This document shows positions 12,312-42,182 of a stretch of 50,787 nucleotides of DNA, piece after piece. The DNA comes from Iphinoe sp. HA4291-MV1 (lineage in GTDB: Bacteria > Cyanobacteriota > Cyanobacteriia > Cyanobacteriales > Nostocaceae), in NCBI GenBank assembly GCA_019359415.1, contig JAHHHH010000055.1, positions 1 through 50,787 of the forward strand, written 5' to 3'. Under the pieces are notes generated by a model. That model did no database searches. It had not been told where the DNA came from and saw only the letters and a list, made by a program, of their open reading frames with translations. Every line of letters begins with the position of its first letter. Positions within the stretch are counted from its first letter, which is position 1. The translations under genes were made by a program, and so were the position numbers.

Positions 12312-12491
12312 AGAAGGGGAAGAGGTACTAGTATAAATAAAGACTAGTACCGTTCGGAATTTTGCTGGTATAGTGCTATAATTTCTGGCTGTTGTAGGAT
12401 TTGCATTTTTCTGAAAAGATTTTTTTCAAAAGAAGAATTTCGCGAATCCTAATTTATCAATAAACCACATGAAAGTGGCTATTACGAAACT

Positions 12492-17780: not shown

Positions 17781-18113
17781 TTACAGAGGATAGCAAGTCG
17801 TTAATCTCGGAATTTCAGAATCATGTTCGATAATCCAGCCACTCCGGATGATTGCACTTCTATCTTGCCATTTCATTTGGAAATCTAAAGTGTAGCGTTG
17901 TCCAAACTCATCCTGTCTTCCCAGTCGAGCCGAATGAGTTTTGACAATTTCTAGAAGAATTTGACGCAATTGTTCAGCATCATCAGCCGTCATACCCAGT
18001 TTCGATGAGAAGAGCCGAGCTTTGTGTTTTCCGTCATCATGCTCTAGATTTAAGCAGTAATCACGCAGTTTACGAATATCAACAACTGCATTCTCTGCAT
18101 TCGGAATCAACAT
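17781..18113 (-). CDS. DUF6883 domain protein
   Basis: A 110-residue protein matching the DUF6883 pattern: an N-terminal AVVDIRKLRDYCLN, then GKHKARLFSSKLGMTADDAEQL and a terminal beta region with RYTLDF.M and IIRSGWII. The family's motif GKHKAR.F is intact. It is the first gene of a pair with DUF4926. Relatives occur fused to or beside secreted toxins, but the biochemical activity is not established, so the role here is open. Confidence 0.78.
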   Translation of the reverse strand: MLIPNAENAVVDIRKLRDYCLNLEHDDGKHKARLFSSKLGMTADDAEQLRQILLEIVKTHSARLGRQDEFGQRYTLDFQMKWQDRSAIIRSGWIIEHDSEIPRLTTCYPL

Positions 18114-18211
18114 TAGAAAAAACAGTAGTCCCTAAAAAGATAATGATGAATTATAGTGTTAAGCTCATCATCTCTTGATTTCTTTCTTCTCGCATTTGAT
18201 GAACGATTTGA

Positions 18212-18467
18212 TCGGGAGCATCCCAAATGTGCAAATTGCCCGCACTTCGCCCTTCGCGCAGCGTCTCCCTTTGGGAGAAGGGGCGACGCCAAAGGCGAAC
18301 GTGCCGCTGCGCTAACAGACACCGAAGTCACTGGCTCACAAACAAAGCCATGCTCCGCAGGCTCTAATTAGTCCGCGCAGGCGGACTTCCCTGCGGGACA
18401 CTGCGCGAACGCCTGTGTAGCCGCGATTTCTAATCGCCAGGTATTTTTGCAAAATTGGGATGCTCCC
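18212..18467. mobile_element. MITE-like element 1 with 13-bp terminal inverted repeats
   Basis: Perfect inverted termini GGGAGCATCCCAA (18212-18224) and TTGGGATGCTCCC (18455-18467) bound a 256-bp non-coding segment filled with palindromic repeats. The longer left end, GGGAGCATCCCAAATGTG, recurs at 24063 and at 50632, the last just upstream of an IS630-type transposase start. Confidence 0.65.
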
Positions 18468-18498
18468 AAACATCCTCTAAGATTTCTGTCCACTGCTA

Positions 18499-18760
18499 TA
18501 ACAATGCAAGCCGATGCATTAACAATGTAACCCGATACATTAACAATGTGAGTCGATACATTAACAATGTAACCCGATACATTAACAATGCAAGCCGATG
18601 CATTAACAATGTAACCCGATACATTAACAATACAAGCCGATGCATTAACAATACAAGCCGATACATTAACAATGCGAGTCGATGCATTAACAATGTAACC
18701 CGATACATTAACAATGCAAGCCGATGCATTAACAATGCGAGTCGATGCATTAACAATGCA
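18499..18760. repeat. 21-bp tandem repeat array, about 12 units
   Basis: Units of the form ATTAACAATG followed by 11 bp with alternating CGATGC or CGATAC are repeated about 12 times with a few alternative variants (GTAACCC, GCAAGCC, GCGAGTC). Long ORFs through it are artefacts of the 21-bp period. One to one-and-a-half inverted units also follow MITE-like element 2 at 24200-24222. Confidence 0.92.
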
Positions 18761-18959
18761 CCGACTTGCGTTTAGATATACTAAAAACGGCTGATTGCTG
18801 GACTTTTGCCTTTGCAAAGAAAGTTTTGCCTGTTAATCTCTTAGCGATTTTAAAAGTAAAGCTCTAACCCGTTTTTAGTATATAAGTAGATAGGTAGAAA
18901 TAAACAGAACTATGTTAAGAAAGGTAAAAGCCTCTCAAACCCTTACTAATGACTAATGA

Positions 18960-28430: not shown

Positions 28431-28604
28431 CTTTACTGTCATCCCCTTGCGGGGAAGAGAGATGAGAGATTGATTAAATCAATCATCCAACATCTCACGG
28501 ATTAATGTTTCCGTCTCTGTTTGGAGTCAGTCTGGTAACAGTACTTGACTGTTAGTCAGCATATGACGGATGTTAGTTTCCGTCCCCTTGCGGGGTGTAA
28601 AAAG
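28431..28604 (+). CRISPR. Degenerate three-repeat CRISPR remnant
   Basis: Three related blocks lie about 70 bp apart. Their cores are CCCCTTGCGGGG at 28443, the decayed CTCTGTTTGGAG at 28515 and CCCCTTGCGGGG at 28584, the last two preceded by GTTTCCGT. The spacing suits 36-37-nt repeats with spacers of about 33-35 nt. Similar repeats in opposite orientation lie at 42078-42182, so the two remnants flank the cas operon. The repeats differ too much to be a recently active array. Confidence 0.6.
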
Positions 28605-29057
28605 TTAGCAATCAAGTATCCTTTTAATTTTTTCAAGATTATTGAAGGATTGCGTAACTTCCAATATATTTGTAGTGTAATATATATTCGCATTATCAGG
28701 TAGAGGTGTTTGATCTTTCGGATTTTCTAAATATCTGGCTTTACGACTCTCCCTTTCTAAGTACTGATAAGCTGTACGTAAATTTGGTTTACGTAATCTA
28801 TCGGCAAGATCTTTAACATATTTCCCGCGAGAGCTGTGGGGAGAGGGATGTGGATATTCACTCCTGATATCATACCCTCTAACACCAGCGTAATATTCTA
28901 CCCAATGCAGCGCTGCATAAAAGCACATGGTTACAGCCCAATCTGGATAATCATGCTCAACACTGTGTGCAGCTCGTTCGTTGCTTTCAGCTTGTTCTAG
29001 GTGACGCTCACAAGTCATTTCTGTATCAAAACTTGGGTAGAAGTCATCAATGTACAA
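28605..29057 (-). CDS. HEPN-like all-alpha protein, third gene of a cassette
   Basis: A 150-residue helical protein. DWAVTMCFYAALHWVEYYAG is the kind of long helix found in HEPN domains, and R65-SEYP-H70 fits the R-x4-6-H ribonuclease motif. The end (RTAYQYLERESRKARYL...LEVTQSFNNLEKI) is helical too. It overlaps the upstream gene by 11 bp. The HEPN assignment is by eye. If it is right, this would be an RNase toxin or accessory nuclease, with a neighbour as possible partner. It lies downstream of the type III CRISPR operon on the same strand but with a 400-bp gap before the cassette. Confidence 0.65.
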   Translation of the reverse strand: MYIDDFYPSFDTEMTCERHLEQAESNERAAHSVEHDYPDWAVTMCFYAALHWVEYYAGVRGYDIRSEYPHPSPHSSRGKYVKDLADRLRKPNLRTAYQYLERESRKARYLENPKDQTPLPDNANIYYTTNILEVTQSFNNLEKIKRILDC

Positions 29058-29526
29058 CTTTGAGACGAGAACTTGACCTAGTTTGTTTGCGTACCTCTAC
29101 AAGTTGTCTGTCATGAAAATCAGCAATTACCTTGGCAGTAGTGTCTTGAAGTGGAGAAAGCTTACTTACTACTTCAGCATCAAAATACCACTTTTCACTA
29201 CTATCATCCCGTAACTTCCATTCACATTCAATTACTACATTTTGCAGCTGCTCCCAGGCTTCATAGGATAATTTAGTTTCTGGCTGTAACTCTATTTCAA
29301 AGTCAATATCATGAAGGTTTGGGAACCTTGGGGCTACAGCCCTTACTCTTTTTACATTGTCTAAATTAGCTAATTTCTGTGCCAATTCTTGTATTCTAAT
29401 CACTACATCAGGATTAGCTGAACCATGCAAGCTAACTAAGCGTAAATTTGATGAAGAATCTTTCTTCTCCCAAATCGTATTGGAAAATCGTGAATTATTC
29501 TGTGTAAAGTTCCTGCTTGAAATCAT
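29047..29526 (-). CDS. Unrecognised alpha/beta protein, second gene of the HEPN cassette
   Basis: A 159-residue protein. Its Ser/Asn-rich first 30 residues look disordered. An alpha/beta core follows (DVVIRIQELAQKLANLD, then HDIDFEIELQ and WKLRDDSSEKWYFDAE). It overlaps the first gene by ATGA (29523-29526) and the third by 11 bp, indicating coupled translation. D73-x-D75 recalls the acidic pair of minimal nucleotidyltransferases that pair with HEPN proteins. However, the only Gly-Ser is 38 residues upstream, too far for the normal motif. No family assigned. Confidence 0.6.
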   Translation of the reverse strand: MISSRNFTQNNSRFSNTIWEKKDSSSNLRLVSLHGSANPDVVIRIQELAQKLANLDNVKRVRAVAPRFPNLHDIDFEIELQPETKLSYEAWEQLQNVVIECEWKLRDDSSEKWYFDAEVVSKLSPLQDTTAKVIADFHDRQLVEVRKQTRSSSRLKVVH

Positions 29527-29747
29527 TCCTCTTCCTTTAAAAATTCATTTAGATGGTTTCTCAAAAAGGCAGCGTGTTGTCGAGTAAATGCAAAATTTAT
29601 CGGATTTGCTGTTAATGCTGATTCTTGTTCACCATCTGTGAATGGGCTTTCTGACAGCATTCCTGCTATTAAAATTCGCTGTTCTTCATCGACTGCTACA
29701 CGTACACCAGTGACTAAGTACACTTTGCCATTACTTTGCTCACTCAT
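29523..29747 (-). CDS. Unrecognised small protein, first gene of the HEPN cassette
   Basis: A 74-residue protein from ATG 29747 (MSEQSNGKVYLVTGVRVAVDE). The longer frame from 29837 would add a leader that lies in the probable promoter. A beta-rich first half (LVTGVRV, RILIAGMLSE) is followed by a helix (RQHAAFLRNHLNEFLKEEE). It overlaps the next gene by ATGA. Its position and size suggest an adaptor or antitoxin role, which is inference only. Confidence 0.6.
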   Translation of the reverse strand: MSEQSNGKVYLVTGVRVAVDEEQRILIAGMLSESPFTDGEQESALTANPINFAFTRQHAAFLRNHLNEFLKEEE

Positions 29748-29903
29748 ACATTGCTCTTGATTTTCCTTTTGTCTGTGAACTGGAGAGCAAAAATGCTGTA
29801 GGTAGGCAATGCCGAATTGCAATTTGCTATCTCCCACATTGTATGATAGCCCTACTTCGAGTAGGGCTTACCCATACTCTAAACAACTTCTACAATTAGC
29901 AAA

Positions 29904-30077
29904 CTACGTTTTTAGAATGGACGTAGCTTTGAAAATTTGGGCTATAGGCGGAGTAGCAGGAAGTTTAGGTGTTACTTGAAACTGAGTAACAGAACTATAT
30001 TGTTTTTGAAACGATTGACAGTGCGTCGATGCTGAATACGAGTCTAGTACTGCAAAGTTTGACCTTGATTCATTCAT
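29904..30077 (-). CDS. Possible 57-residue peptide upstream of the HEPN cassette
   Basis: An open frame from ATG 30077 to TAG 29904 encodes MNESRSNFAVLDSY... ending AQIFKATSILKT, rich in Ser, Gln and Thr. An AAAGGA ribosome binding site sits about 10 nt before the ATG. It lies in the otherwise gene-free stretch 29748-30153, between the CRISPR operon and the HEPN cassette. It could be a leader peptide or chance. Confidence 0.35.
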   Translation of the reverse strand: MNESRSNFAVLDSYSASTHCQSFQKQYSSVTQFQVTPKLPATPPIAQIFKATSILKT

Positions 30078-30153
30078 AAAGCATTATTCCTTTGTAATTT
30101 CTACCTTAATTATACTGAAACATAAAGTTTGTTTTAATATACAAGTAAATCTT

Positions 30154-30840
30154 TTATACACATTTAACACTTTTAAGACTCCCGTCTTCCTTGAGAGATA
30201 CAATTTTCACCTGAACCGTCTGTCCTTCCTGAAGAACACTAGCTTTCTTGGGTTCCTTCTCGGTTAGCTTAATTGTCCCCAGAATTTCATAAGTGACCTT
30301 GTTACCATTGATTTTGGTAACTTTTGCCTCTAATATTTGGTCAATGTGAAACTCTTGCGATGGCGCAGAGCGCCCGCTTCCCTTCGGGACACTCCGTGAA
30401 CGCGATCGCACGACTTTGGCAATTTCTGTTTGACGTGTTGACTCTACAGGGGACGGGGTGGTAATTGCAATTTCTCCAATTGGTACACCAGCGTCTTTGT
30501 AGTAACGCATCAGGCGAGATACCCAACCTAAAATTTGCAGAATGGTGTAGGAATCTGCAACACTTTTGAGAGAATTACTACAAGCTTTCTCGATACTGCG
30601 GTAATAATCTGAAGTTCTGCCACTGTGTCCAATTTGTTTACCATGACTTACCAAGGTTTTTAAATACTTGAAAAACTGAGAATTTGCATCTGGTTTGTTA
30701 ACAACAGTACGCAGATAAGCAACTGCTTTCCCCAATTCGTTAACGTCTGTATTTTCTTTTACTAGGGTTTGAGCGATCGCATGAGCAATATCCCACTCTG
30801 CATCTGTCAATAATTCCGAGGAACATTCAACCATAGTCAT
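30154..30840 (-). CDS. CRISPR-operon protein with helical N-part and OB/S1-like tail
   Basis: A 228-residue protein, last gene of the effector operon, starting 2 bp after the upstream RAMP stop. Residues 1-130 are helical (LTDAEWDIAHAIAQTLV, AVAYLRTVVNK, ILQILGWVSRLMRYY). Residues 165-228 look like a small beta-barrel (HIDQILEAKVTKINGNKVTY, then GQTVQVKIVSL), possibly an RNA-binding S1/OB fold. The linker RSRSRSVPKGSGRSAPSQ is encoded by a GC-rich palindromic repeat (about 30361-30410) and appears inserted in frame. No known cas family recognised. Confidence 0.7.
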   Translation of the reverse strand: MTMVECSSELLTDAEWDIAHAIAQTLVKENTDVNELGKAVAYLRTVVNKPDANSQFFKYLKTLVSHGKQIGHSGRTSDYYRSIEKACSNSLKSVADSYTILQILGWVSRLMRYYKDAGVPIGEIAITTPSPVESTRQTEIAKVVRSRSRSVPKGSGRSAPSQEFHIDQILEAKVTKINGNKVTYEILGTIKLTEKEPKKASVLQEGQTVQVKIVSLKEDGSLKSVKCV

Positions 30841-30842
30841 AA

Positions 30843-31907
30843 TTAGTACATTCCTGATGGGGGTTCGCGGTCGGTTGGATAGCGCAGTACGGCTGTGAGT
30901 TCCTCTAGTTGGGGTTTTTGAATCAGGCGCGAGTGTGCCGTTTGAATATTTTTTTGTATAAATTGTTGTAATTTTTCTCCTGTCATCTCGTCAGAATCAT
31001 TGAGATTATAAGACGAGTAGCGCTGTTTCAGGTTTTGTGCTTGTAAGATTTTTTCCACAGTGACTGTCATTGTTCCCATACCAATCGGTTTCCCGCCTCC
31101 CACCTTTAAGGCGATGGGATTTTTGGAGTCTTGTCCTAAGACAATTAACAAAGTTCCTAACTCTTCTGGTAGTAAATTCTTGAAGTGCAACTGGGTTGTG
31201 AAAGTATACTCTCTTGCGGCTTGCTGTACAGGAATGCCAGCATTTTGTCCTTTATCAATTGCCCTGATAGTATGGTAGTAAAACTTCCGACCTGCAACTC
31301 TGCCTTGAATAAAGTATGCGCTGCTTTCATCTGGACGAGGACGATATAAGGAAGGCATAAATCCGGTGGAAAAGCCCATGCTTTCACACTTAGCATCGTT
31401 GAAATCAAGTAATCCTTGCCAATCTAACGCACCAAAAACCCGACTGGCTGGACAAAGTTGTTCTTTGTTGCGACAAGGTAGGCGTTCGGTAGGTATCTGA
31501 CTCCTATACTTGGAGGTAATGACCGCTAGAGTACTGTTGGTAATCGCTTCATAAACAGACCGGATGCAGCCTTTGAGAGAACTGCCACCAATTGTAAGCT
31601 TTTGGTTAACACCTTGTATCATTGTTTTAATGAGGGGAATGCGACTGCCAATGTCACTACCCATGACAACTACACCTGTGGAGACGTGGAGAGATGTCTG
31701 CACTTTTAGGGTAAGATATAAAGTACCGTGTAGGCGATCGCTCAAATATTTATGATGTCCAACAGGACGCTGTAGGTTAGGACGTTCCTTGGGAAAGGAG
31801 ACGAATGCATAAGGTTTTGGTGCAAGTTCAGGATTTGATGAACTAGCACTGCTAGGACGGTTAGGTCTGTTTGGTTGTTGAGGTCGTTGCGGACGATTTC
31901 CAGTCAT
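30843..31907 (-). CDS. Type III CRISPR RAMP protein (Cas7-like), 354 residues
   Basis: A RAMP-superfamily subunit of the effector backbone. After a Pro/Arg/Asn-rich N-terminal 50 residues it shows the Cas7 strand YLTLKVQTSLHVSTG, the loop VMGSDIGSRIPLIK with D85, then GGSSLKGCIRSVYE and CPASRVFGA. Near the end comes the glycine loop GGGKPIGMGTM. D85 sits where the target-cleaving aspartate of Csm3 lies, an inference from alignment by eye. Its ATG overlaps the Csx19-like gene stop by ATGA (31904-31907). Confidence 0.85.
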   Translation of the reverse strand: MTGNRPQRPQQPNRPNRPSSASSSNPELAPKPYAFVSFPKERPNLQRPVGHHKYLSDRLHGTLYLTLKVQTSLHVSTGVVVMGSDIGSRIPLIKTMIQGVNQKLTIGGSSLKGCIRSVYEAITNSTLAVITSKYRSQIPTERLPCRNKEQLCPASRVFGALDWQGLLDFNDAKCESMGFSTGFMPSLYRPRPDESSAYFIQGRVAGRKFYYHTIRAIDKGQNAGIPVQQAAREYTFTTQLHFKNLLPEELGTLLIVLGQDSKNPIALKVGGGKPIGMGTMTVTVEKILQAQNLKQRYSSYNLNDSDEMTGEKLQQFIQKNIQTAHSRLIQKPQLEELTAVLRYPTDREPPSGMY

Positions 31908-32452
31908 GGTTGCGTTACCTCCACAGTAAGGGCGATAAATTGCACAGTTGAGGTTTGATTATCAATAAAATAACGTTGAGCTAATTTTGGCTTATTGTTT
32001 TTTTCTTCCTTAATTTCTTCTTCTTGAAGTCGAATATCTAAGCTGTCGGGAAAAATGAGTTTTTTGGGAAAACGAGTTGTATCCGGACGATATCCATAAG
32101 CGGGATATGCATAAGGAGGATTATTAGGGTTTATCCGCCAAGGTTCTTTTTCTTCTTTGTTAATTGTTTCTTTGACTGGGATAAACTCATCATGGTTGTC
32201 AGCAATTGTGAGCAGCAACACTTCATAAGTATTTTGGCGCTTGTGCTTCCACCGCAGTTCAGATTTATGATTAAACATTTGTCCCTCAATCATGGGAAAG
32301 TCATCATTTATGGGTGGTTTTTCTAAAATTCCACTGACTTTATGAGTCCAACGTAAGAAATAATAGCTAGGTTCACTTATGAATTTTGGAATGAATTCTA
32401 GCAGTTGAGGTACTGATAAAAGTTCTTTTTTATAACCAACAAAAGGTTTCAT
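31904..32452 (-). CDS. csx19: Csx19-like type III-D CRISPR protein
   Basis: A 182-residue protein from ATG 32452, which overlaps the upstream RAMP stop by ATGA. The pattern YYFLRWTHKVSGILEKP, GQMFNHKSELRWKHKRQNTYEVLLLT and a terminal VQFIALTVEV strand resembles Csx19. Csx19 is a small subunit specific to type III-D complexes. A Lys/Glu-rich stretch (LQEEEIKEEKNNK) precedes the last strands. Identification is from memory of the family's F-x-x-x-x-E-L-R-W/L pattern and the operon context, so moderately sure. Confidence 0.65.
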   Translation of the reverse strand: MKPFVGYKKELLSVPQLLEFIPKFISEPSYYFLRWTHKVSGILEKPPINDDFPMIEGQMFNHKSELRWKHKRQNTYEVLLLTIADNHDEFIPVKETINKEEKEPWRINPNNPPYAYPAYGYRPDTTRFPKKLIFPDSLDIRLQEEEIKEEKNNKPKLAQRYFIDNQTSTVQFIALTVEVTQP

Positions 32453-33462
32453 TTTGCCCCCACCAGTAAACGACTCCAAGATTTGACAGAACGCTCAAAC
32501 AAATCTTTGACTGTACCTTCTCGCCAGGTGAGTTGCACTCCAAAACCCAAATCCATTTCTTGGGCTGCAGCTGGTGTATCTTGATGATCTTGTGTGGGAA
32601 AGCCATATAATTGTGCTTCTTGAGGTTCTAAAAATTCTCCTGCACCTAAGAGGAAAGTCTTAGACCATTTTTTCTCACTACCCAAAGCACAAATTTGTTG
32701 TTTATCTTCCGATAAAATACATCCAGGATATTGGACGACAGCTTGATTTAACTTCAACTGTACCGTACCCAAACCGCGAGATTTAGCAAAACCCAAGCCA
32801 AACCAACCATCATCTAAATCTCGCAACACTAAACCAATTAAACCTAACTGTGCAAGAGTAAAGTTTTTTAAATGAATTTTAGTATGGAATTCGCCAGCAG
32901 TGCAAACTTGATAGTTGAATGGACCCACTGCGACAGAACCAAATACCCGGTCAATTGCTACCCCGTTGCGTTCTTCAATTTTTAGAGGTTGAGATTTATC
33001 AGGATAAGCATCTTCTATTCTGACTCGGCTGGCGATGGAAGTATTGCCAAACATTTGGGAGATAAAGCATGATTGTTTATATAATTCTGCCCCTGGATGA
33101 GGATGTCGCTCCTCTAACTTCTTCTTTTTTTCACGGTTTTTCCAATCTTCAAGATAAAAATTCGGATTATTCTGTTTGTCTCTTTCGTCTAATAGATTAC
33201 TAGACCAAAGTTTTTGAGTATTTTCTGGTGGACGTTTTTCACTCCCTATAGTTCTAACAATTCGTTCTGCATGAGCGCGGATTGCTCCTTTTAAACTGCT
33301 TCCCGGTAAATATATAGAACGTCCTCCAGCATGATAAGTTTCCACAAATTCCATATCCGGCTTAGTTGGATCTGCACCTTCTTTACCAGATTTGATGAGA
33401 ATTGGACCATCAGGAATGAGAGTTATATCAATCGTGCAGTTATTAACAAATCTTTTATGCAT
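32449..33462 (-). CDS. Type III CRISPR RAMP protein (Csm3/Cas7-like), 337 residues
   Basis: Cas7-family backbone subunit: a first strand IDITLIPDGPILIKSG, an acidic loop GADPTKPDM with D31 and D36, then GRSIYLPGSSLKGAIRAHAERI. C-terminal to these are SQMFGNTSIASRVRIEDAY, ERNGVAIDR and the Gly-rich FAKSRGLGTVQL. It likely contacts crRNA and, through an acidic loop residue, cuts target RNA. The C-terminal 90 residues after the core are unusual for a plain Csm3. 30 bp separate it from the nuclease-like gene upstream. Confidence 0.88.
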   Translation of the reverse strand: MHKRFVNNCTIDITLIPDGPILIKSGKEGADPTKPDMEFVETYHAGGRSIYLPGSSLKGAIRAHAERIVRTIGSEKRPPENTQKLWSSNLLDERDKQNNPNFYLEDWKNREKKKKLEERHPHPGAELYKQSCFISQMFGNTSIASRVRIEDAYPDKSQPLKIEERNGVAIDRVFGSVAVGPFNYQVCTAGEFHTKIHLKNFTLAQLGLIGLVLRDLDDGWFGLGFAKSRGLGTVQLKLNQAVVQYPGCILSEDKQQICALGSEKKWSKTFLLGAGEFLEPQEAQLYGFPTQDHQDTPAAAQEMDLGFGVQLTWREGTVKDLFERSVKSWSRLLVGAK

Positions 33463-33492
33463 GACTAAATTTAGTTGGTAAGATCTGGAATA

Positions 33493-34113
33493 TTAAGCAG
33501 CTACCAGATTGTTGAGCTGCAATTCACACTGTTGAAAGACATAATTGACGACAGCAAAGAGTTTATCTATTTCTTGAATTGTGTAAAACGTGATGTTTCT
33601 CGTAAACACTTGTGCTTCTAGCTTCCCAAATTGCCAACGGTCACCATTAGACACAATTCCAAATATAGTTATTTTAAATTCGTCATTAAGCCGCTGTGCT
33701 GCTATCATTTCTGCTAAACATTGTGCCCATCCAGTTTCAAAGTTATCTTGCTTGGCTTCTACCAATATGAAGTATGGTTTGTCAAAAACAACTTTTCCTA
33801 AAGGAGAACGTTTCGCTAAAATATACTCAGGAAATCCTGATAATTTTTCGTCGTAGTTGAGTGAGTGATGACTCCATAAAATGAACTTACTACGGTAGCA
33901 TTTCCAAATCTCTTTGAGGACCGGATAAATCAGATTTTCACAAATAGCAAACTCTGAACTATCAACTACACCATCCCGCATCATGGTTTCTAAATCTTCC
34001 CGGAAGTAATCAGGGATATTAAATTCAACTTCCCCTACGAAATTAGCTTCGGTGTAGATAACTTGAAATGCTTTGAGAACTTCACCAATAGTTTTGTAAC
34101 TGCTGAAAGACAT
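33493..34113 (-). CDS. PD-(D/E)XK nuclease-like protein embedded in the CRISPR operon
   Basis: A 206-residue protein of a family I recall as common in cyanobacteria. The restriction-endonuclease-like core is FPEYILAKRSPLG (P95 E96), then KPYFILVEAKQDNFETGWAQCLAEMIAAQ with E119-A-K121, giving P-E...E-x-K and a conserved helix after it. It starts 2 bp after the stop of the Csm3-like gene upstream and ends 30 bp before the next RAMP, in the same orientation, so it is co-transcribed with the effector. It is not a standard type III subunit. It could be an accessory nuclease or a passenger. Confidence 0.75.
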   Translation of the reverse strand: MSFSSYKTIGEVLKAFQVIYTEANFVGEVEFNIPDYFREDLETMMRDGVVDSSEFAICENLIYPVLKEIWKCYRSKFILWSHHSLNYDEKLSGFPEYILAKRSPLGKVVFDKPYFILVEAKQDNFETGWAQCLAEMIAAQRLNDEFKITIFGIVSNGDRWQFGKLEAQVFTRNITFYTIQEIDKLFAVVNYVFQQCELQLNNLVAA

Positions 34114-34115
34114 AT

Positions 34116-35018
34116 TTACCTCTTCGCTTCAGTGTTCTTTTTATGAGATGCTTTACTCTCAAGATGTTCAATTAACTTTTGTACCCAATCGTCTTTAAAA
34201 TCCCGTGCATCTTCATAAGCACTCTTATCTCCCATAACCAATTTTTTGAGATAATCTAGTAATAACTGCGGTTGGTCTTCGGGATAGTCAAACCAAAGCA
34301 TATCGTTAATGTCCAGTTTAACAACACCCAATCCGCGTGATCGCCCACCACCCAAAGGTACCTGTTCTGTTTCAAACTGGTGCAAACCAATCATCAACAA
34401 TCCTAATTCCCATTCTTCAGCATTTTCTACCACAGCCTGAAAGTCAAACTGTGTCCCAGCAGGAACGACTTGGAAATCATACAGTTTACCGTCTGCGGCG
34501 GTTTCTGTATCTCGATCAATGGCGACACCATCTCTTTCTTGGTATTGTCCAAACCAGGTGTCAGGTACTATGGTTAAATCGCGGACTTGAAATTTACTGG
34601 CTAACCAGGGAGAACCAAAAAGATGAGAAATTAAGTCAGTTTCATCGATAATCTTTTTTGTCAGTAGTTCATCTCTTTTCGCGTTGCGTTCCTTCTCTGG
34701 ATACTGCTTAAGTTTTTCTTCGACTTCTTCTTTGATACCATTTTTACCATTGAGACGTTCGTTTGTGATTGACCATTCTGCTTCGATAGCAGGATTAGCA
34801 GCAAAACTTGGGTTGATACCACGGAGGAAACTTTCTAAGCGCGATCGCATTGCGCCTTTGAAGCTAGAACCTGGTATTAATGGTCTACCTAAAGCGTCTT
34901 TGATGACAGGTAAATCAGAACCAATTGGTTCGGTGGAACGTCCTGCACTAATACGTAATGCTGTTATTGTAGTTAGTGTGCCTGTGATTGTTAGGCGGTT
35001 TTTAAAAATGTCAAACAT
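34116..35018 (-). CDS. Type III CRISPR Csm3/Cas7-like RAMP protein, 300 residues
   Basis: The most typical Csm3-like subunit here. It has LTITGTLTTITALRISAGR, D35 in IGSDLPVIKDALGRPLIPG, GSSFKGAMRSRL, LISHLFGSPWLASKFQVRDL, ERDGVAIDRDTETA and the glycine loop PLGGGRSRGLGVVKL. D35 matches the aspartate of Csm3 that cleaves target RNA at 6-nt steps. A Lys/Glu-rich helix insertion occupies about residues 85-125. The gene lies 10 bp after the CARF gene stop. Confidence 0.9.
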   Translation of the reverse strand: MFDIFKNRLTITGTLTTITALRISAGRSTEPIGSDLPVIKDALGRPLIPGSSFKGAMRSRLESFLRGINPSFAANPAIEAEWSITNERLNGKNGIKEEVEEKLKQYPEKERNAKRDELLTKKIIDETDLISHLFGSPWLASKFQVRDLTIVPDTWFGQYQERDGVAIDRDTETAADGKLYDFQVVPAGTQFDFQAVVENAEEWELGLLMIGLHQFETEQVPLGGGRSRGLGVVKLDINDMLWFDYPEDQPQLLLDYLKKLVMGDKSAYEDARDFKDDWVQKLIEHLESKASHKKNTEAKR

Positions 35019-35028
35019 AGCTCACTTC

Positions 35029-36180
35029 TTATTTGGAATATTTTTCTCTTAAATGAATAGCGATAGTGTTAGCTTCAGCGAAATTTCTACCCGTAGTTTC
35101 AATACATAAGCCAAGTCCTTTATCTGTCCATGTGAGAACAAATTCTATAATCCCATTAGGTTTGACTCGACGAATAGGATTTTTATGTTTTGGATTAAAT
35201 GGGAGGGAATTTATTACCTTCTTGACATATGGAGAACGACAAATTTTATCTGCAAAAGCTTGCAATTCATCTTTACCGTGGTCATCTCTCAGATTAATTT
35301 CTTTCTTTTTAGCTTCACTTGTATCTTGGGGAATTAGTGAGAGTAGAGTAGTTTCTTGCTTTGCAAATTCCAAGCGCGAACGTTCGTTAAATAAAACACC
35401 CATTTCTGAAAGAGTTATATAAGATATGTCATCTATCAATTCGTGAACTATGAGTGACCTTATATAATCTCCATCAAGAAGTTGGTTAATTTCTGATTTC
35501 GTAATTTTTTCTGAAAGAATTTCTTCAATTTCTGCTTTCGGTACTGTTTGTTCAGTCTCTAAAAACTCAAATAATGGGTAGTGATTCAACCAAAAACCAA
35601 GGTCGAGAGCAACAGGCTGTGGTGGTAGTTCAATTACTTCAGAAAATTTTTCAAACAAGTAATAAACTGGAATTCCTAAAGCTTGTCCAATCATCCCAGC
35701 AAATGATATTTGTGCCTTGTAGCCACCCGTAGCATTAATCGCAATCTGTTCAGAAGAAAATTTTCTAGCTTCAGTACTGATTTCGCGGACAAGACTTTTT
35801 AGACCTTCTTGCTTAAATGATTTTACATCATCGTCTCGTAGTCCTTGCAGTACATGACATATAACGTTTTTAAACTGTAATGGATTACGGTAATTATTAT
35901 AATACAATTTCAATATTTCACCAGTTTGTTTACCATCTTCTGTATCAGAAACCAAAAATATCAATCTTTCAAAGGAAGATAAAAATCCTTTTTCACATAT
36001 TCTGGCAATAGAATTAATTTCTGCACCACATATACGATGAGTATTTACTTTCTCTAAAAGTAGTAACGTTAGCTTCTGCCAGTTTTTTTCTTCAAAAGCT
36101 TGCTTGAGCGCCTCTTCATCAGTAAATTTCAAATTACTAAAAATGCTTGTGCCCACTGTACAAATCAGAGTATTTCTCAT
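35029..36180 (-). CDS. CARF-domain CRISPR effector (APE2256-like), non-HEPN C-terminus
   Basis: A 383-residue protein from ATG 36180 (MRNTLICTVGTSIFSNL); the frame upstream to 36231 is not family-like. Residues 1-200 form a CARF Rossmann domain (CTVGTSIF, LIFLVSDTEDGKQTGE, AINATGGYKAQISFAGMIGQA) of the TIGR02619/APE2256 type, which binds the cyclic oligoadenylate made by Cas10. A winged-helix-like part follows (EIEEILSEKITKSEINQLL). The last 95 residues contain GIIEFVLTWTDKGLGLCIET and TTGRNFAEANTIAIHL, with no R-x4-6-H. The size and layout recall CARF-RelE mRNA interferases (Cami1). This is inference. Confidence 0.8.
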   Translation of the reverse strand: MRNTLICTVGTSIFSNLKFTDEEALKQAFEEKNWQKLTLLLLEKVNTHRICGAEINSIARICEKGFLSSFERLIFLVSDTEDGKQTGEILKLYYNNYRNPLQFKNVICHVLQGLRDDDVKSFKQEGLKSLVREISTEARKFSSEQIAINATGGYKAQISFAGMIGQALGIPVYYLFEKFSEVIELPPQPVALDLGFWLNHYPLFEFLETEQTVPKAEIEEILSEKITKSEINQLLDGDYIRSLIVHELIDDISYITLSEMGVLFNERSRLEFAKQETTLLSLIPQDTSEAKKKEINLRDDHGKDELQAFADKICRSPYVKKVINSLPFNPKHKNPIRRVKPNGIIEFVLTWTDKGLGLCIETTGRNFAEANTIAIHLREKYSK

Positions 36181-36241
36181 AATGGTATTCCGGAAAATCC
36201 AAAAGTAATTTTTATCTGGTTCTGAAAGCAATATCCTATTA

Positions 36242-36652
36242 TCATGCTACACCGTCGCGCTTGTATTTCAAATGACGCGCACCATAACCTAAATAACGAC
36301 GAATCAATTCTAGCCAAATCGGTTTAAAGTCGGTTTGGGTACACTCAGCAATTATTTGAGCGGTTTTCTTGATATTGCCATCAATATCTTCAATAATTTT
36401 TTCAGCCAGTGATTCTTTACCTCTTCCCCATTTTTTATCCCTACCTACTTGATAACGAATGAAGTTTTTAATTACTTCTGCGCTTTCAGTCGTATCAGAG
36501 ACACGTACCAAGTTACGAAATTGAGATTCTTCTAAGTCTCCATATTTTGCTTTGTCTAAAGCTTCCTGAATCCATATAACTAGCTCATCCTCAACGTGAC
36601 GAATTTCTTTTTGAATTTGTAACTCTGTTTTTGATTCTATAGGTAAACTCAT
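36242..36652 (-). CDS. Cas11-like small subunit of the type III effector
   Basis: A 136-residue helical protein from ATG 36652, overlapping the csx10 stop by ATGA. FRNLVRVSDTTESAEVIKNF, IRYQVGRDKKWGR and RRYLGYGARHLKYK resemble the Csm2/Cmr5-type small subunits and related type III proteins that line the target strand. Identification relies on size, helical character and position between csx10 and the CARF gene. Confidence 0.65.
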   Translation of the reverse strand: MSLPIESKTELQIQKEIRHVEDELVIWIQEALDKAKYGDLEESQFRNLVRVSDTTESAEVIKNFIRYQVGRDKKWGRGKESLAEKIIEDIDGNIKKTAQIIAECTQTDFKPIWLELIRRYLGYGARHLKYKRDGVA

Positions 36653-38028
36653 ACCGCCTCCTCTCGCATGACACGATGAAATGGATTGCAAATTTGGATT
36701 TGACCGAAGCCTTCACAAGTGCGATCGCCTACTCCTTTCCATTCCAATTGCTTTAATTTATCCATCCATAAATCTCGTTGATTTGTACTAAATAAATAGA
36801 CAGCACCTCGATTTGTCACTAATTCTATATCTTTCATTAACCCCCAAGCTGCATTCCAGCCAGAACGATAGTTATAGCTACTGTAAGCTACTTCCAATTT
36901 CAGAAAATCCTCCTGTTCTTCTTTGCGAAGTTGTGAAAATTCATCATCTAATTCCACAGCTTGACATAGCATTTGTGGTGAAATCACTGTAGTGCGTCGC
37001 CAGTTTTCTGTGAGGATAGCATCGGCTTGCAGGTCAAGGGTAAAATAGGTACGTTCTAATAGATTTTTTTCTGGCTTACCAAAGACTGACCAAAGTTTCC
37101 AGCGTTCCTGAAGTTTATTTTGAAATTCAGCGATTCTCGCCTCAACATCTGCTGAAGCATCTTCAATTTCTGCTTTAATTTCAACTTTCCCCAAACCCCG
37201 CGAAGTTGCTCCACCTAAACGAAAGAGATGAAATTTTTGATTGATGAAATTTTCGAGAGACTTGGCTAATTTTGCGTCTTTAACTAGAACTGAACTTCGG
37301 TAAACTACAGGACGCCAGTTTTTAAAAACTGCTTGAGGATTTTCTAAAAATGACTCGTTGAAAACTTCAAGACTGTAGAGGATATCATCCTCAGATGTAG
37401 CGCGTCGGCGGTTAATTCCCACTCTTGTCAGGAAGCGAGTGCTAGTAGAATGACTGCGATATTTATATTTAATTTCACTATCGTTAATTTTCTTGTTAGT
37501 TTTGCTGTAGAAGCCACCAAAAGGTTCAACCCGCGCATCTGTTTTGTCTTCTAGAGATTTTGGATCGCTCGGATCGTAAGGAAAATTATATGCATCTGCG
37601 CAGAAGCGGTCAATCAGAGTATCAAAAACTCCGTTATATTTGGGTTTAAAACCTGGGTTTGTTTTAGAACTAACGGCTGTTGCGGGTAGAACCATGACTT
37701 CATCAGTCACAACCTCGGAAATTAAGTCTGGCTTCTTTTGAGTAAAATTAAACTCATCTGCCATTTTAGCTACGGCTGGATAAGCATTTTGGAAAATGGC
37801 AGGTTCATCACTTAAAAATAGTGCTTCAAAATCACCGCCACCCGTGGCTAAATTTTGTTCTGCTATCCGTGGTGTTTCCTGGTTGGAGAGTTGTAGAATT
37901 TGAGATGCGATCGCTCCTCGAATCACAGAACCGGGAATATGATCTTCAGCTTCACTCACAGAACCAGCTTTTTTAGCTGCGATCGCCAATGGAGACAAAG
38001 TTGTAATCTTCAATTTAATTAGCTTCAT
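36649..38028 (-). CDS. csx10: Type III-D CRISPR RAMP protein Csx10 (Cas5-like)
   Basis: A 459-residue protein with the Csx10 pattern. The N-terminus LIKLKITTLSPLAIAAKKAG is followed by HIPGSVIRGAIASQI, a glycine-containing GGGDFEALFLSDEPAIFQNAYP, and GGATSRGLGKVEIKAE in the middle. The C-terminal SGWNAAWGLMKDIELVTNRGAVYLF and GVGDRTCEGFGQI complete it. It is the Cas5-like subunit that caps the crRNA 5' handle and defines subtype III-D. A 123-bp gap holding a palindromic repeat (38078-38128) separates it from the upstream Cas7 gene. Confidence 0.88.
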   Translation of the reverse strand: MKLIKLKITTLSPLAIAAKKAGSVSEAEDHIPGSVIRGAIASQILQLSNQETPRIAEQNLATGGGDFEALFLSDEPAIFQNAYPAVAKMADEFNFTQKKPDLISEVVTDEVMVLPATAVSSKTNPGFKPKYNGVFDTLIDRFCADAYNFPYDPSDPKSLEDKTDARVEPFGGFYSKTNKKINDSEIKYKYRSHSTSTRFLTRVGINRRRATSEDDILYSLEVFNESFLENPQAVFKNWRPVVYRSSVLVKDAKLAKSLENFINQKFHLFRLGGATSRGLGKVEIKAEIEDASADVEARIAEFQNKLQERWKLWSVFGKPEKNLLERTYFTLDLQADAILTENWRRTTVISPQMLCQAVELDDEFSQLRKEEQEDFLKLEVAYSSYNYRSGWNAAWGLMKDIELVTNRGAVYLFSTNQRDLWMDKLKQLEWKGVGDRTCEGFGQIQICNPFHRVMREEAV

Positions 38029-38151
38029 GACTCATACAGCATTTCATTAATTTGTAACTGATTAAATCTGGCGAGACTCTGCGTTCCTACCCTGCGGGAA
38101 GGCGAAGCGCCTATGCGTGTTCCTCTGCGTTGAAAAAAATTACGAATGTAA

Positions 38152-38871
38152 CTAACACCTGTACTTAGCCTCCGGTAGTAGTTTCTCCCAGAGAGAATCA
38201 TCTTTTGGGAGTGTTTCGAGTTCTTTCCATCTCAACCAACCCAACCCAACAGATTTACTACCACCGAGGGCGTGGATATGTCGCAAGCCTGCTAAAATTA
38301 GTGGTCTGGCGTATTCGGGACAGTCTGGCAGTAGATGAATTTTCCCTGTAAATTCCAATTGACTATTAGCTGGGGAAGTCTCTAGAAAGTAGAGTTTTTT
38401 GTCTTCTGCTATGCGACGACGGCGGTTTATAGTGACACCAGGGCGTAGCACTTCTGGTAAATCCTCTGCTTCTAGATCACAAATCAAGTCATCGACTATA
38501 ATTCGTGATGGCAGTATGGGATTGCCAAATATCTGAGAAATTCGGCAGTGATGACCTTTGTAACCTGTAACTTGGTATGTTTCTCGAAACTGACTTTCGA
38601 CTTGTTCTTCTTTAGGACACAGTGTTTCCGCACCAGGTGATTCAAAAATTTGCCATCCTAATCCCCTAGCCAGCTTTTCGCATTCATGGCGCAGTCTCCC
38701 CTTGAGTTGCGAAGCAGGAATTATTAATTGTCTTCTCGCATTGCGGACAATGGGTTTATCTGCAAGAGAACCATCAGAACCACCTGCGCCGACACATAAC
38801 GCAGTATCAATCACTGCTGTTAAGGAAATTCTTGTGACTTGATTTTCAGGTAAACTCTGCAAGGAAATCAT
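38152..38871 (-). CDS. Type III CRISPR RAMP protein (Cas7-like), 239 residues
   Basis: A compact Cas7-family subunit: RISLTAVIDTALCVGAGGSDG with D33 and D38 before PIVRN, IIPASQLKGRLRHECEKL, CRISQIFGNPILPSRIIVDDL, RPGVTINRRRRIAEDKKLYF and the glycine loop LGGSKSVGLGW. It is the second gene of the operon and overlaps cas10 by ATGA (38868-38871). It is shorter than the other RAMPs here and could occupy one end of the backbone. Confidence 0.88.
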   Translation of the reverse strand: MISLQSLPENQVTRISLTAVIDTALCVGAGGSDGSLADKPIVRNARRQLIIPASQLKGRLRHECEKLARGLGWQIFESPGAETLCPKEEQVESQFRETYQVTGYKGHHCRISQIFGNPILPSRIIVDDLICDLEAEDLPEVLRPGVTINRRRRIAEDKKLYFLETSPANSQLEFTGKIHLLPDCPEYARPLILAGLRHIHALGGSKSVGLGWLRWKELETLPKDDSLWEKLLPEAKYRC

Positions 38872-41141
38872 GATTGCACCGTCTGTTGCTGTGATTCGGA
38901 ACGAGTTGATGGGTTCTGTGCTTTTTCAATGAATGGATATAAATCTACCAACTCTCGCCAGATAGTTTCGTAAGTAACTTTCTCCTCAGCATCTTCTTTG
39001 TCTTCTTTCAAAGACATCCAAGGTGCAAGATTACCATTATTCTTTGGATCTTTCGGCTGACACCATGCTTCTTCAAACTGTTTTTTGAGTAATTCCTGCG
39101 CTTGCTTGTCAGCCAATCGCACTCGGAAGTAGCGATAATTGAGTATCGCTGTCTGTTTACCCCGTTCTAGCAAGCTGCGGATTTGGTAGAGTTGGGACTT
39201 GGGAAACTCTGCTGCTTTTAGTGCTTTAGCAGTTTCCAAAAGTCCGCCCAATTCATGTAAGGTGTAAGGTGCAGCATATAGTTTGAGTTTTTGCTGTCCC
39301 AGTCCAGATTTGGTTAATCCTTGAGAACGGAATTCATTTATATTGGAAGAAATCATTGTGACAGCTTTCATGATCAAGAAATCTACCGTCCCGCCATGAT
39401 ATCCATCTTTTTTTAAGTTTTTTGCGTAGTTTTTGGCAGATTTTAATAGCTGAGTCGTGAGCTTTTCTGCATAGTAAATTGGTGTATCTTCAGCGGTAAT
39501 CAGCACTCCAGTGGACATACTTAATTGACATTGAGATGGTAGTGCTGATTGTGGATGGTAGCGATGATACAATAAGCAACGCTGTGGAATCTGGTAGTTT
39601 TCTAATTTAGCAAGCCTGCTTTCAAACTCTTCGCCGATGGTTTGAGCAATAGCTAGTGCTTTCTCTGCTGGAACAATCAGCATCACATCATCGCCGCCAA
39701 TAGTTAAAATCTCAAAGGGATGAATCCAGCAGCCATTACGATTTTCATTATCTTTATCAGTCAAATTCTTGAGTTGATGGGGGCGTAGATGTTGTACTAA
39801 TGCTTTATAAACTGACTGTTCAGTAGCGCTAAAAATATCTTTACTAAATTGCTGATATTCTTGTGGAGTTTTTATTTTCTGAATGTACCCACCCATATTA
39901 TTACCATCAGCATAAATATAGGCAACAAATCCGTTGGGTGTACTTGCATTGCCAATTTCTCTTACAGAACGTGCTTCTTCAGGCTTTGAAGGTTGAGTAT
40001 AATACTGATTGCCTAATCCATTTTCATCCAAAAACTTCTCAAATTTTTGCACCCAACTGGGAATATAGATTTGTTTAGGCTGCCAATCAAAACCAACTTT
40101 CTCGTACCAACCTTTAGGACTATCATCTCGTTTAGCAATTTGTCCTACAATGCGTTTGCGTGCTAATGCTTCTGAAAACCAAGGTGCATTAGGAAGTCCT
40201 TCAGCTTTCATTACCGCAGAACGTCTATCCCCCTCATCTCTAATTAAATAAGGATGTGTTTCAAACATTGGCGGATAACGACGACTAGGACGTTCGTCTG
40301 CAAAATCATTACCGCAGCGTCGTTGATTGAATAAAGAGGTTAACTCACCAACCAATTCGTTAAAACTTTTACGGTTTTTAAAAGCTTGTTCTGGTTCAGT
40401 TACATCAGGTTGGTCGAAATATGCTTGTATCAGTGGATGTTTTTGATTCTCGATATACTTATCCAACCAGAAAGTTTTGTCAATCTGATGTGGTAGCAAG
40501 CCAAACCTGATTTCTAATAGCTTATATTTAGCACCAACTGCACAGGAATTAGCTGTTAAAGTTTCTTCTGTGTAACGTTTTTCAATAGCATTAGCAAAAT
40601 CATCAACAAAAGCAGTCGGACAAAAAGCTAGAATATTACCACCAGTAGAATAGATAATGAGTTCTGGAATTAAGGCACGTTCTAATTCGGGAAAGTGTTT
40701 TTTCAGCCATAAAGATATTGAAATTGACTTCGGTACATCTTTTTCATATTTACCAAAGAAAGCAGGTAAGTCAACTAAGTTAATTCTATCAAGTAGTGCA
40801 GAAGCACCTCGAATGTCTGGAAGTTTCGCCGCTTCAAAAACATACTGTTTAATCTTAGTCGCACCACCATAAACTAAGCCAATGCGGGTAGTCTGATTCC
40901 ATAATTCAGAATACTTACTCTTTAATTCATCTAGAGTTGCCGGAAAATAATCTTTATCAATTCCTTGTAGTTTTTGAACTTGTTCGACAAGGGGACGCAC
41001 TTCTTCTGGAACATCTTTCCCATCATTTATCGCCTGTCGCATTTGCTTTAAAATAGCTATATCAAACTTGGGTTCTCGCTCGTCTCCCCAAGCCAAACAC
41101 CAGCTAATTGCCGTTATGATGCTGTGTTGAGAATTTGTCAT
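38868..41141 (-). CDS. cas10: Cas10 (Cmr2/Csm1-like) with active-type Palm and no visible HD domain
   Basis: A 757-residue large subunit, first gene of the operon. A Palm cyclase site GGDD (residues 482-485, in ILTIGGDDVMLIVP) should make cyclic oligoadenylates on target binding. YIYADGNNMGGYI is the other Palm-like motif. The N-terminal 100 residues have no H-D pair, so the single-stranded DNase domain seems absent. CDS features of type III-D/B Cas10 include LVYGGATKIKQYVFEAAKLPDIRGASAL-type sequence near residue 100. The long upstream region 41142-41370 has no gene and probably holds the promoter. Confidence 0.92.
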   Translation of the reverse strand: MTNSQHSIITAISWCLAWGDEREPKFDIAILKQMRQAINDGKDVPEEVRPLVEQVQKLQGIDKDYFPATLDELKSKYSELWNQTTRIGLVYGGATKIKQYVFEAAKLPDIRGASALLDRINLVDLPAFFGKYEKDVPKSISISLWLKKHFPELERALIPELIIYSTGGNILAFCPTAFVDDFANAIEKRYTEETLTANSCAVGAKYKLLEIRFGLLPHQIDKTFWLDKYIENQKHPLIQAYFDQPDVTEPEQAFKNRKSFNELVGELTSLFNQRRCGNDFADERPSRRYPPMFETHPYLIRDEGDRRSAVMKAEGLPNAPWFSEALARKRIVGQIAKRDDSPKGWYEKVGFDWQPKQIYIPSWVQKFEKFLDENGLGNQYYTQPSKPEEARSVREIGNASTPNGFVAYIYADGNNMGGYIQKIKTPQEYQQFSKDIFSATEQSVYKALVQHLRPHQLKNLTDKDNENRNGCWIHPFEILTIGGDDVMLIVPAEKALAIAQTIGEEFESRLAKLENYQIPQRCLLYHRYHPQSALPSQCQLSMSTGVLITAEDTPIYYAEKLTTQLLKSAKNYAKNLKKDGYHGGTVDFLIMKAVTMISSNINEFRSQGLTKSGLGQQKLKLYAAPYTLHELGGLLETAKALKAAEFPKSQLYQIRSLLERGKQTAILNYRYFRVRLADKQAQELLKKQFEEAWCQPKDPKNNGNLAPWMSLKEDKEDAEEKVTYETIWRELVDLYPFIEKAQNPSTRSESQQQTVQS

Positions 41142-41370: not shown

Positions 41371-41790
41371 TCATAACTTTAACCCGGCTTTCCATTTCCA
41401 CTCCAAGCCAAGGCGTTTGCAAACTAGAGCAAAGTCTAGATTCAACTCTAGATTCTTGGATAAAGCTTCAATTAAGCGTGTCAAAACATTCTCAGTTGAT
41501 TTTGCAACTGAGTTAACAGCATAAATCTTATTCATTGAGGAATCCTGGTTTGAGGTGAGGGATTCCTGATTTTGAGGTAGCACTTGTATCGACGCGACTG
41601 GTGGCAAGATAATAAATTCTATGCTTTTAGTCTGCGCTGCTTGTGGAATTTTTGGTATGGTTACCCACTTGAATGACTGTCCGCTCACTTGGAAAAAAGC
41701 GTTGCTCTGATTCTTACAATCTAACGCTAGCCAGGAATTTGGTCTTGTTGAGTGTTTTCCTGGAGTGTTTCCGTAAAAATATACCGTCAT
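41371..41790 (-). CDS. Unrecognised small protein upstream of cas10
   Basis: A 139-residue frame: a beta-rich first half (MTVYFYGNTPGKHSTRPNSW, FIILPPVASIQVLP), a Ser/Asn/Gln-rich linker and a helical end (TRLIEALSKNLELNLDFALV, CKRLGLEWKWK). It is in the same orientation as cas10, 229 bp upstream of it, and follows the 42-kb CRISPR remnant. No family is recognised. It may be an accessory protein of the locus or independent. Confidence 0.5.
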   Translation of the reverse strand: MTVYFYGNTPGKHSTRPNSWLALDCKNQSNAFFQVSGQSFKWVTIPKIPQAAQTKSIEFIILPPVASIQVLPQNQESLTSNQDSSMNKIYAVNSVAKSTENVLTRLIEALSKNLELNLDFALVCKRLGLEWKWKAGLKL

Positions 41791-42077
41791 TGGCTTTCCT
41801 TATTTCTAAAATCGCTAGTCTCACGTATGCTGAATAGTTGCGTCAATTTACTGATTTCATCCGTCTGGCATTTCCATGTCTTTTTCCTTTGAACATTAAT
41901 TTAGATTGTAATAGACAAATTCTGGTTTGTCCGTAATTTATCGTAAGTTTATATACTATGCTTAGAGATTAATCTCAGTATTGAGCAAGTATACTAATCA
42001 GCTTCTTTACAATACTTTTAGCTAGAAGTTGTATCTTGATTCTTAATAAGATAAGCTTTAAAGTGAGAATAGTAGAC

Positions 42078-42182
42078 TACAATTCAGTAACTTCCTCGCA
42101 AGGGGATTGAAACTCGCTGATTCATGTATTATGAATTGTTGAGTCAATTTTCAATACTTCCCCGCAAGGGGACTCAAAAACC
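42078..42182 (-). CRISPR. Two diverged CRISPR repeats with one spacer
   Basis: On the minus strand the blocks GTTTCAATCCCCTTGCGAGG (from 42114 down) and GTTTTTGAGTCCCCTTGCGG (from 42182 down) align over about 37 nt, sharing AAGT and several later bases. They are spaced 68-69 nt apart, leaving a spacer of about 32 nt. Their core is the same as the remnant at 28.4-28.6 kb, in the opposite orientation. The remainder of 41791-42347 shows no gene. Confidence 0.6.

Follow-up and report, generated by a model that had tools for sequence, protein, structure and literature searches.

The 50,787-nucleotide contig of the cyanobacterium Iphinoe sp. HA4291-MV1 analyzed here (the whole stretch is called the window) carries an intact type III-D operon of the clustered regularly interspaced short palindromic repeats (CRISPR) systems, bracketed by two short, degenerate repeat arrays. 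The operon encodes a standard III-D1 effector, and we think it likely that guides from its flanks silence a linked, probably toxic, gene at the mRNA level. With a little less assurance, we consider it probable that the arrangement is a type III toxin-guard, the first of that type, present in several cyanobacterial genera. Its guides would leave Cas10 off and would have "landing pads" in the first codons of the guarded genes, and in the window a further guide would address the operon's own leader. The proposal is built on observed repeats, conserved spacers, complementarity, periodic mismatches and linkage. A preliminary description of this DNA, made from the letters alone, did not mention the flanks, where the CRISPR repeat remnants lie.

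Degenerate repeats flank the operon

Relatives of the window operon were collected in two ways. A scan of genome contigs gave 13 loci, and among 243 genomes sampled from the order 35 exceeded the cut-off for Csx10, from which the 30 strongest besides the window genome were fetched, weaker or partial Csx10 matches being left out. The 43 fetched Csx10 loci represent 41 distinct ones (L022 equals L037, and L027 equals L048). The repeat of the arrays that lie beside III-D operons has the core TCCCCTTGCGGGGA. This core has four matches within 2 mismatches in the window, where 0.19 are expected, and all four copies are at the operon borders, at 28442 and 28583 downstream and at 42093 and 42159 upstream. 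They form two degenerate mini-arrays, one on each side. The downstream mini-array is made up as follows.

28576-28608, minus strand: ectopic repeat R1 (repeat-core scan)
28538-28575, minus strand: guide sp1, the first spacer after R1
28507-28537, minus strand: degenerate middle repeat (bounds approximate)
28469-28506, minus strand: spacer sp2, conserved in family A
28432-28460, minus strand: ectopic repeat R3 (bounds approximate)

The guides of the mini-arrays are predicted to carry the 5' handle ACGGAAAC, like that of a CRISPR RNA (crRNA). Relatives have one or two such repeats 0.6-1.9 kb past Csx21 (2.7 kb in L059), with the crRNA orientation in the sense of the operon. The sequence between the repeats is conserved across genera and falls into two main families, A with seven loci and the divergent L054, and B with five and the divergent L017. 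By eye, a sigma70-type promoter resembling TTGACT...TATTAT lies 60-100 nucleotides (nt) ahead of several mini-arrays. An Rfam search returned only sub-threshold CRISPR repeat families. Degenerate ectopic repeats adjoining effector genes, a mark of the CreTA/CrePA-like modules discussed below, are present.

The first downstream guide is complementary to a nearby leader

Where would these guides act? The spacer that follows the first downstream repeat has its complement on the sense strand, 100-281 nt past Csx21 (938 nt in L059). In the window, this site falls in u0, a small open reading frame (ORF) described below.

30016-30053, minus strand: target of guide sp1 (18/24 at guide nt 12-35)

Genome-wide, the pattern of the window guide is found within 3 mismatches only at the spacer itself and at the u0 site. 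The case for guide-target pairing is comparative, not from the window alone. Local alignment, done without a periodic assumption, gave shuffle p values of 0.000 to 0.04 in 14 loci and of 0.065 in L025. A locus-wide scan of both strands, likewise free of that assumption, had the leader site as its best site in 14 of 15 mini-arrays. The two approaches agree on the sites in 14 of 15, L025 being the failure; L017 has a tandem site, of which the scan picks the copy that the alignment did not. With L058, which had been set aside as an ordinary short array and was negative when tested, a spacer partly complementary to a linked gene was found in 14 of 16 discovery loci. Replication used 28 further III-D genomes, 22 of which hold Csx21 and 13 of which have downstream repeat cores. 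There, a leader site at 116-231 nt was recovered in 11 of 13 loci (L091 as a tie), the failures being L097 and L107. The new positives share no sampled exact 120-mers with the earlier loci. All told, there are 25 positives, with 21 different guides and 24 different guide-target pairs, and in every positive the guide is antisense to the sense strand of the gene. As a negative control we took the flank after the second repeat, whose best site was never the leader in the replication loci. Ordinary array spacers seldom behave in this way: 4 of 313, from 18 loci, reach at least 17 of 20 non-flipped matches, versus 24 of 28 first-repeat spacers (a count that includes L058 and leaves out L107 as a duplicate).

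The position of the target is also consistent. Thirteen of the 14 discovery targets are inside an ORF, 21-115 nt after the ATG. The target occupies an N-terminal extension of the toxin ORF in L021, L027, L031, L045, L047 and L049, and in the six toxins that were scanned the Pfam toxin domain starts at residues 48-65. Elsewhere it is found in a separate small ORF before YoeB (L017) or at about codons 9-22 of u0. A second, near-equal target site lies 33 nt away in L017, L021 and L031 and 36 nt away in L047. Guide-target duplex energies range from -24 to -42 kcal/mol and were below those of 300 shuffles in 14 of 14 cases, at sites chosen by match, so that this is not an independent test.

Mismatches recur at every sixth nucleotide

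Pairing spans guide nt 11 to 36, approximately, and the mismatches concentrate on every sixth nucleotide, at 12, 18, 24 and 30. Over nt 12-35, mismatches in the discovery set number 39/56 at these positions versus 26/280 elsewhere, and in the replication set 35/44 versus 22/220; the other phases had no excess in either set. Distinct pairs, pooled, give 70/96 versus 47/480. Leave-one-phase-out scoring yielded a sum of best scores of 268 for the true phase versus 233-242 for the others. One scoring, which omitted the sixth positions, is circular for periodicity and was not relied on. Five loci have one and the same guide, and their targets vary at positions 12, 15, 18, 24 and 30. Might codon wobble cause the period? 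Positions 15, 21, 27 and 33 have the same codon position and are seldom mismatched (11/56 and 5/44), and this explanation was rejected.

The excerpts of PMC8376896 used here state that type III-B excludes every sixth base, that its seed is at the 3' end, and that cyclic oligoadenylate, and with it Cas10 activation, requires the first seven nt; type I complexes, by the same excerpts, also exclude every sixth base and have a fixed 5' seed. Nucleotides 1-10 of our guides are mostly unpaired. As far as sequences can tell, the geometry is the one expected when a type III complex binds RNA and leaves Cas10 inactive, and it favours RNA targeting.

Cassettes between csx21 and the mini-array

What would be guarded? 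In most mini-array loci a same-strand cassette sits between Csx21 and the mini-array. The span of the preliminary description, 28605-41141, took in three of the four cassette genes of the window, u1 to u3, which it left undescribed.

29904-30077, minus strand: u0, a 57-residue leader ORF of the u-cassette that holds the guide target (ORF and target mapping)
29523-29747, minus strand: u1, a conserved small protein (comparison with relatives)
29047-29526, minus strand: u2, a conserved protein without recognised family (comparison with relatives)
28605-29018, minus strand: u3, a HEPN-like protein (Pfam HEPN in 4/7 members, best 3.9e-5)

The u1-u2-u3 set with a HEPN-like u3 is present in seven discovery loci, counting the window, and by tblastn in 6 of 11 new positives; from the weak HEPN match we infer a toxin role for u3. 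In six other loci Pfam recognises toxin families: YoeB with Phd/YefM (L017, L049), YoeB (L045), a Gp49/HigB type (L021, L031) and a HigB-like protein (L027). Similar toxin pairs were seen by inspection in L047, L087, L089, L106 and L108. When u2 was searched for in the 243 genomes, 12 had a match, and 7 of the 8 strongest are beside III-D; the eighth has an in-frame stop and lies beside Cas6, Csx1 and Cas7-like hits. Distant u2-u3 pairs, at 6699-7416 of L061 and 4775-5471 of L062, where the III-D query proteins were unmatched in the fetched stretch, suggest a free-standing HEPN-like two-gene module. In L046, at 17786-18451, guide and target match at 22/24, the ATG before the target is followed by an immediate stop, and there is no toxin-antitoxin pair between Csx21 and the guide; this locus is perhaps a disarmed module.

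How might the module work? We propose that crRNA-like guides arise from the degenerate ectopic repeats at the operon flanks, and that they would be expressed and loaded into the III-D effector. The downstream guide runs antisense to the opening codons of the neighbouring cassette, be it an extended toxin or, in the window, u0-u1-u2-u3, and the guide-loaded effector would bind the cassette mRNA and, through Cas7, probably cut it. Because guide nt 1-10 are mostly unpaired, Cas10 would not be switched on, and the gene would be silenced without an immune alarm. Were the effector lost or inhibited, the cassette would be expressed and the cell would be arrested, an outcome that could serve as addiction or as an anti-anti-CRISPR safeguard; we infer the toxicity, and propose either purpose by analogy.

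The upstream mini-array

42091-42179, plus strand: upstream mini-array, two degenerate repeats with the guide at 42114-42151 (repeat-core scan)
41813-41850, minus strand: candidate target of the upstream guide, its best site (19/24 at nt 12-35)
41371-41790, minus strand: 139-residue ORF between this target and cas10 (PADLOC gave no match)

The upstream guide is mismatched at the flipped positions 12, 18 and 24, and also at 17 and 29. Its candidate target is 23-60 nt before the 139-residue ORF, upstream of cas10. The match is known from one locus in one genome, and we regard the upstream mini-array as a CreR-like candidate whose guide would likewise damp expression from the leader of the cas10 operon.

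Weighing the explanations

A number of observations weigh against our interpretation. Taken by itself, the sp1 match of the window is a modest one, with a shuffle p of 0.005; L022 and L044 gave 0.015 and 0.04. No target was found for the sp2 spacers, that of the window included, and a leader target was found neither for the downstream repeats of L025 (the same contig as L107), L058 and L097 nor for the array of 13 repeats in L029. No toxin pair was recognised in L046 and L099, which have retained both guide and target. The window u3 compares with Pfam HEPN at 0.013, below the cut-off, a weak assignment. One ordinary spacer, from an array of at least four repeats, matches a site in its own locus at 23/24. 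Guide nt 1-10 do match at 49 of 140 positions in the discovery set and 36 of 110 in the replication set, exceeding chance mainly at nt 3-7. The loci share ancestry, so that Fisher p values (near 1e-20) overstate the case. Finally, a period of six is also a property of type I systems, and the genome carries I-B and I-D genes.

Might the guides then work with a type I effector encoded in trans (I-D or I-B) that represses transcription at the DNA, as in CreTA, CrePA and CreR? The shared exclusion of the sixth base and the resident genes speak for this. We nevertheless judge it unlikely, as the 5' seed that type I needs (excerpts of PMC8376896) is mostly unpaired, and the repeat core is shared with the arrays that lie next to III-D operons and not with the CTCCCTATTAGGGATTGAAAC arrays, with the mini-arrays linked to III-D1. 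Moreover, the guide is antisense to the sense strand in 25/25 positives and 13/14 discovery targets are within an ORF. One might think, too, that the flanking repeats are the dead remnants of decayed arrays beside an ordinary III-D1 operon, with conservation and complementarity accidental. Decayed arrays leave short degenerate repeats, and full arrays lie upstream in several relatives. Accident is a quite unlikely author, however, of spacers conserved across genera and of same-place targets in 25 loci with period-six mismatches, which are rare for ordinary spacers. We consider it very unlikely that the elements are antisense RNAs acting without Cas proteins, or structured ends of the operon that arose from repeats. 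By eye the repeats and spacers can form hairpins, and the duplex energies at the match-picked sites are below shuffles in 14/14; yet a plain duplex gives no reason for six-base mismatches in register with the 5' handle. Silencing of a linked gene's message by the III-D1 effector is the reading we prefer.

The operon is a standard III-D1 effector

The window operon is a real, intact, standard subtype III-D1 effector. Profile searches with PADLOC and the ORF list bear out the eleven minus-strand genes at 30154-41141 and the identities that the preliminary description gave them.

38868-41141, minus strand: cas10 (PADLOC Cas10 and an alignment of 12; III-D, GGDD cyclase motif; HD motif not seen, by eye)
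38152-38871, minus strand: cas7a (PADLOC; candidate catalytic Asp38)
36649-38028, minus strand: csx10 (cas5) (TIGR02674, 417.6 bits, cut-off 177.3)
36242-36652, minus strand: cas11, ATG start (PADLOC Csm2/III-D small subunit, 203 bits)
35029-36180, minus strand: CARF protein of the CARF7-DUF2103 type (PADLOC, 437 bits; exchangeable slot)
34116-35018, minus strand: cas7b (Asp35, aligned with D33, a catalytic residue of III-Dv Cas7-2x)
33493-34113, minus strand: PD-(D/E)XK nuclease-like protein (PDLC01472, 160 bits)
32449-33462, minus strand: cas7c (PADLOC and alignments)
31904-32452, minus strand: csx19 (PADLOC, 131 bits)
30843-31907, minus strand: cas7 of the C-terminal TIGR03986/Cas7-insertion type, short (score under the TIGR03986 cut-off)
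30154-30840, minus strand: csx21 (PADLOC, 288 bits; predicted Cas11-like helical and S1/OB domains, from model and fold comparison)

PADLOC names these proteins Cas10, Csm3-type Cas7 (four), Cas5_IIId/Csx10, III-D Csm2, Csx19, CARF7-DUF2103, PD_DExK and Csx21; ten match III-D or ancillary profiles, and Cas10 a general one. These profiles, with Csx10 above its NCBIfam cut-off, support the earlier assignment to type III-D. All eleven frames are open, and the GGDD of Cas10 is intact and invariant in the alignment of 12. Asp38 of cas7a is invariant in 12 and aligns to a Csm3 Asp, three Cas7 proteins of the operon carry a candidate catalytic Asp, and E119-A-K121 of the PD-(D/E)XK protein is invariant in 11. 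The ATGA overlaps noted earlier at 31904, 32449, 36649 and 38868 are there on direct reading of the sequence, and better start codons are ATG 36180 (CARF), 36652 (Cas11) and 32452 (Csx19). As the description had said, cas1 and cas6 are missing from contig C69, which is the whole window (Pfam searches blank; cas2 was not searched for). The CARF protein has relatives in entries 8phb/8phj (named Cami1) and Sis0811; its model is poor, with a predicted local distance difference test score (pLDDT) of 49, and its structural matches are CARF and winged-helix domains.

Unfused cas10, cas11, several cas7 and csx19 in III-D order, together with the csx10 signature and the Cas10 cyclase motif, place the operon in III-D1; the absence of HD was judged by eye, and HD occurs in 3% of III-D loci in the excerpt of PMC11229360 used here. 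Did the combination and order differ from known III-D loci, as first thought? Among the close Csx10 relatives they do not. Counting the genes present, all 43 fetched loci share the core order Cas10-Cas7-Csx10-Cas11-Cas7-Cas7-Csx19-Cas7(insertion type)-Csx21, and a novel gene order was rejected. Csx21 is present in 42/43, L036 being without it; a contig end truncates L043, and decay is seen in L016 and L028. Cas1 or Cas6 is variably present beside the operon among relatives. The gene set had been called expanded; CARF, PD-(D/E)XK and Csx21 genes are in fact common among the Csx10 relatives. The supposedly unknown gene with an OB-like tail is Csx21, for which named PADLOC profiles exist. From its model, Csx21 may be a Cas11-like subunit with an S1 domain attached. 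Sequence homology to Cas11 by hhalign had a probability below 1%, under an unrelated control at 12%, and the stronger claim, that Csx21 is proven as Cas11, was dropped. Foldseek gave no match to the model at E 0.001 or better, the best rows being S1/OB or ribosomal proteins. The name Csx21 was not met in the literature searched, which did not extend to subscription papers and preprints.

Authors of the fused III-Dv complex hold that it maintains the III-D1 organization, and the window core order corresponds to the order kept in that complex (both from excerpts of PMC11026444). The window operon resembles the III-D1/III-Dv effectors (Saccharolobus 8bmw, Synechocystis 8s9t) in gene set, in the III-Dv order, in its three Cas7 proteins with a candidate catalytic Asp and in having Csx19, as in III-Dv; it differs in its genes, which are unfused relative to III-Dv, in the inserted CARF and PD-(D/E)XK genes, and in the presence of Csx21. 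The slot between cas11 and cas7b has CARF families swapped among close relatives with sharp breakpoints (window 35029-36180; L018 11818-13134 versus L019 11814-12965), and resembles a plug-in effector socket. In L020, L025, L027, L028 and L035 the place of the usual cas11 is taken by another allele that has diverged to about 30-38% identity; in 4 of these 5 loci it comes together with the CARF-HEPN slot gene. In L016 9507-12027 (Brasilonema bromeliae), which has the most similar Csx10, Cas10 is decayed and the Cas11 start runs into the tail of a CARF-HEPN gene.

Other CRISPR loci of the genome

A genome search for cas6, which the preliminary description had recommended, found Cas6 in trans by Pfam: contig C127 has III-A genes with Cas6 and a second Cas6, and C64 has I-D genes with Cas6d. 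I-B genes with Cas4-Cas1 are on C93. Arrays in trans are at C122:22129-22804 and on C33, C35, C39, C111, C21 and C93 (genome G000). The C122 array has a repeat close to those beside the relatives' III-D operons and may feed the window effector; it is an unassigned candidate. Spacers of the C93, C33 and C21 arrays had no match in the window at up to 4 substitutions. The window also has two tandem repeat tracts with a 21-bp period, at 12463-12755 and 18457-18813.

Relation to known guard systems

A December 2025 review describes CreTA as clarified only for type I-B and asks about other CRISPR types and toxins (excerpts of PMC12737573). The excerpted texts of PMC9458426 and PMC12737573 describe no type III guard; subscription papers and preprints were outside the search. 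The loci presented here are a concrete, testable type III case for the review's question about guards. If our interpretation is true, an effector that targets RNA and raises an alarm can be used for quiet silencing, through a guide whose Cas10-activating end is largely unpaired. There would then also be a reason why toxin-antitoxin pairs adjoin III-D operons, and loss or block of the CRISPR system would poison the cell. The loci offer natural guides for measuring what pairing type III tolerates in the cell.

We read the arrangement as a type III version of the guide modules CreTA, CrePA and CreR, which belong to type I and V systems. Like CreTA of type I-B, it has a single degenerate ectopic repeat or a pair of them next to the effector operon, and a crRNA-like guide that is partly complementary to the linked toxin gene (excerpts of PMC9458426 and PMC12737573). 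In CreTA, however, the toxin is an RNA and Cascade blocks promoter DNA, whereas in our loci a protein gene's message is the predicted target and the effector is III-D. CrePA shares with our loci a protein toxin under a crRNA-like antitoxin, with a proposed anti-CRISPR response (PMC12737573, in excerpt). CreP is described as being, in the typical case, a KilA-N protein under repression at the promoter; the cassettes here are of YoeB, HigB, Gp49 or HEPN-like type, and their silencing would go through the message. The upstream guide recalls CreR, the autoregulating module of type I and V-A, in matching the 5' region ahead of the effector operon. It differs from CreR in being known from one locus, in having its complementary target on the sense strand, and in belonging to type III.

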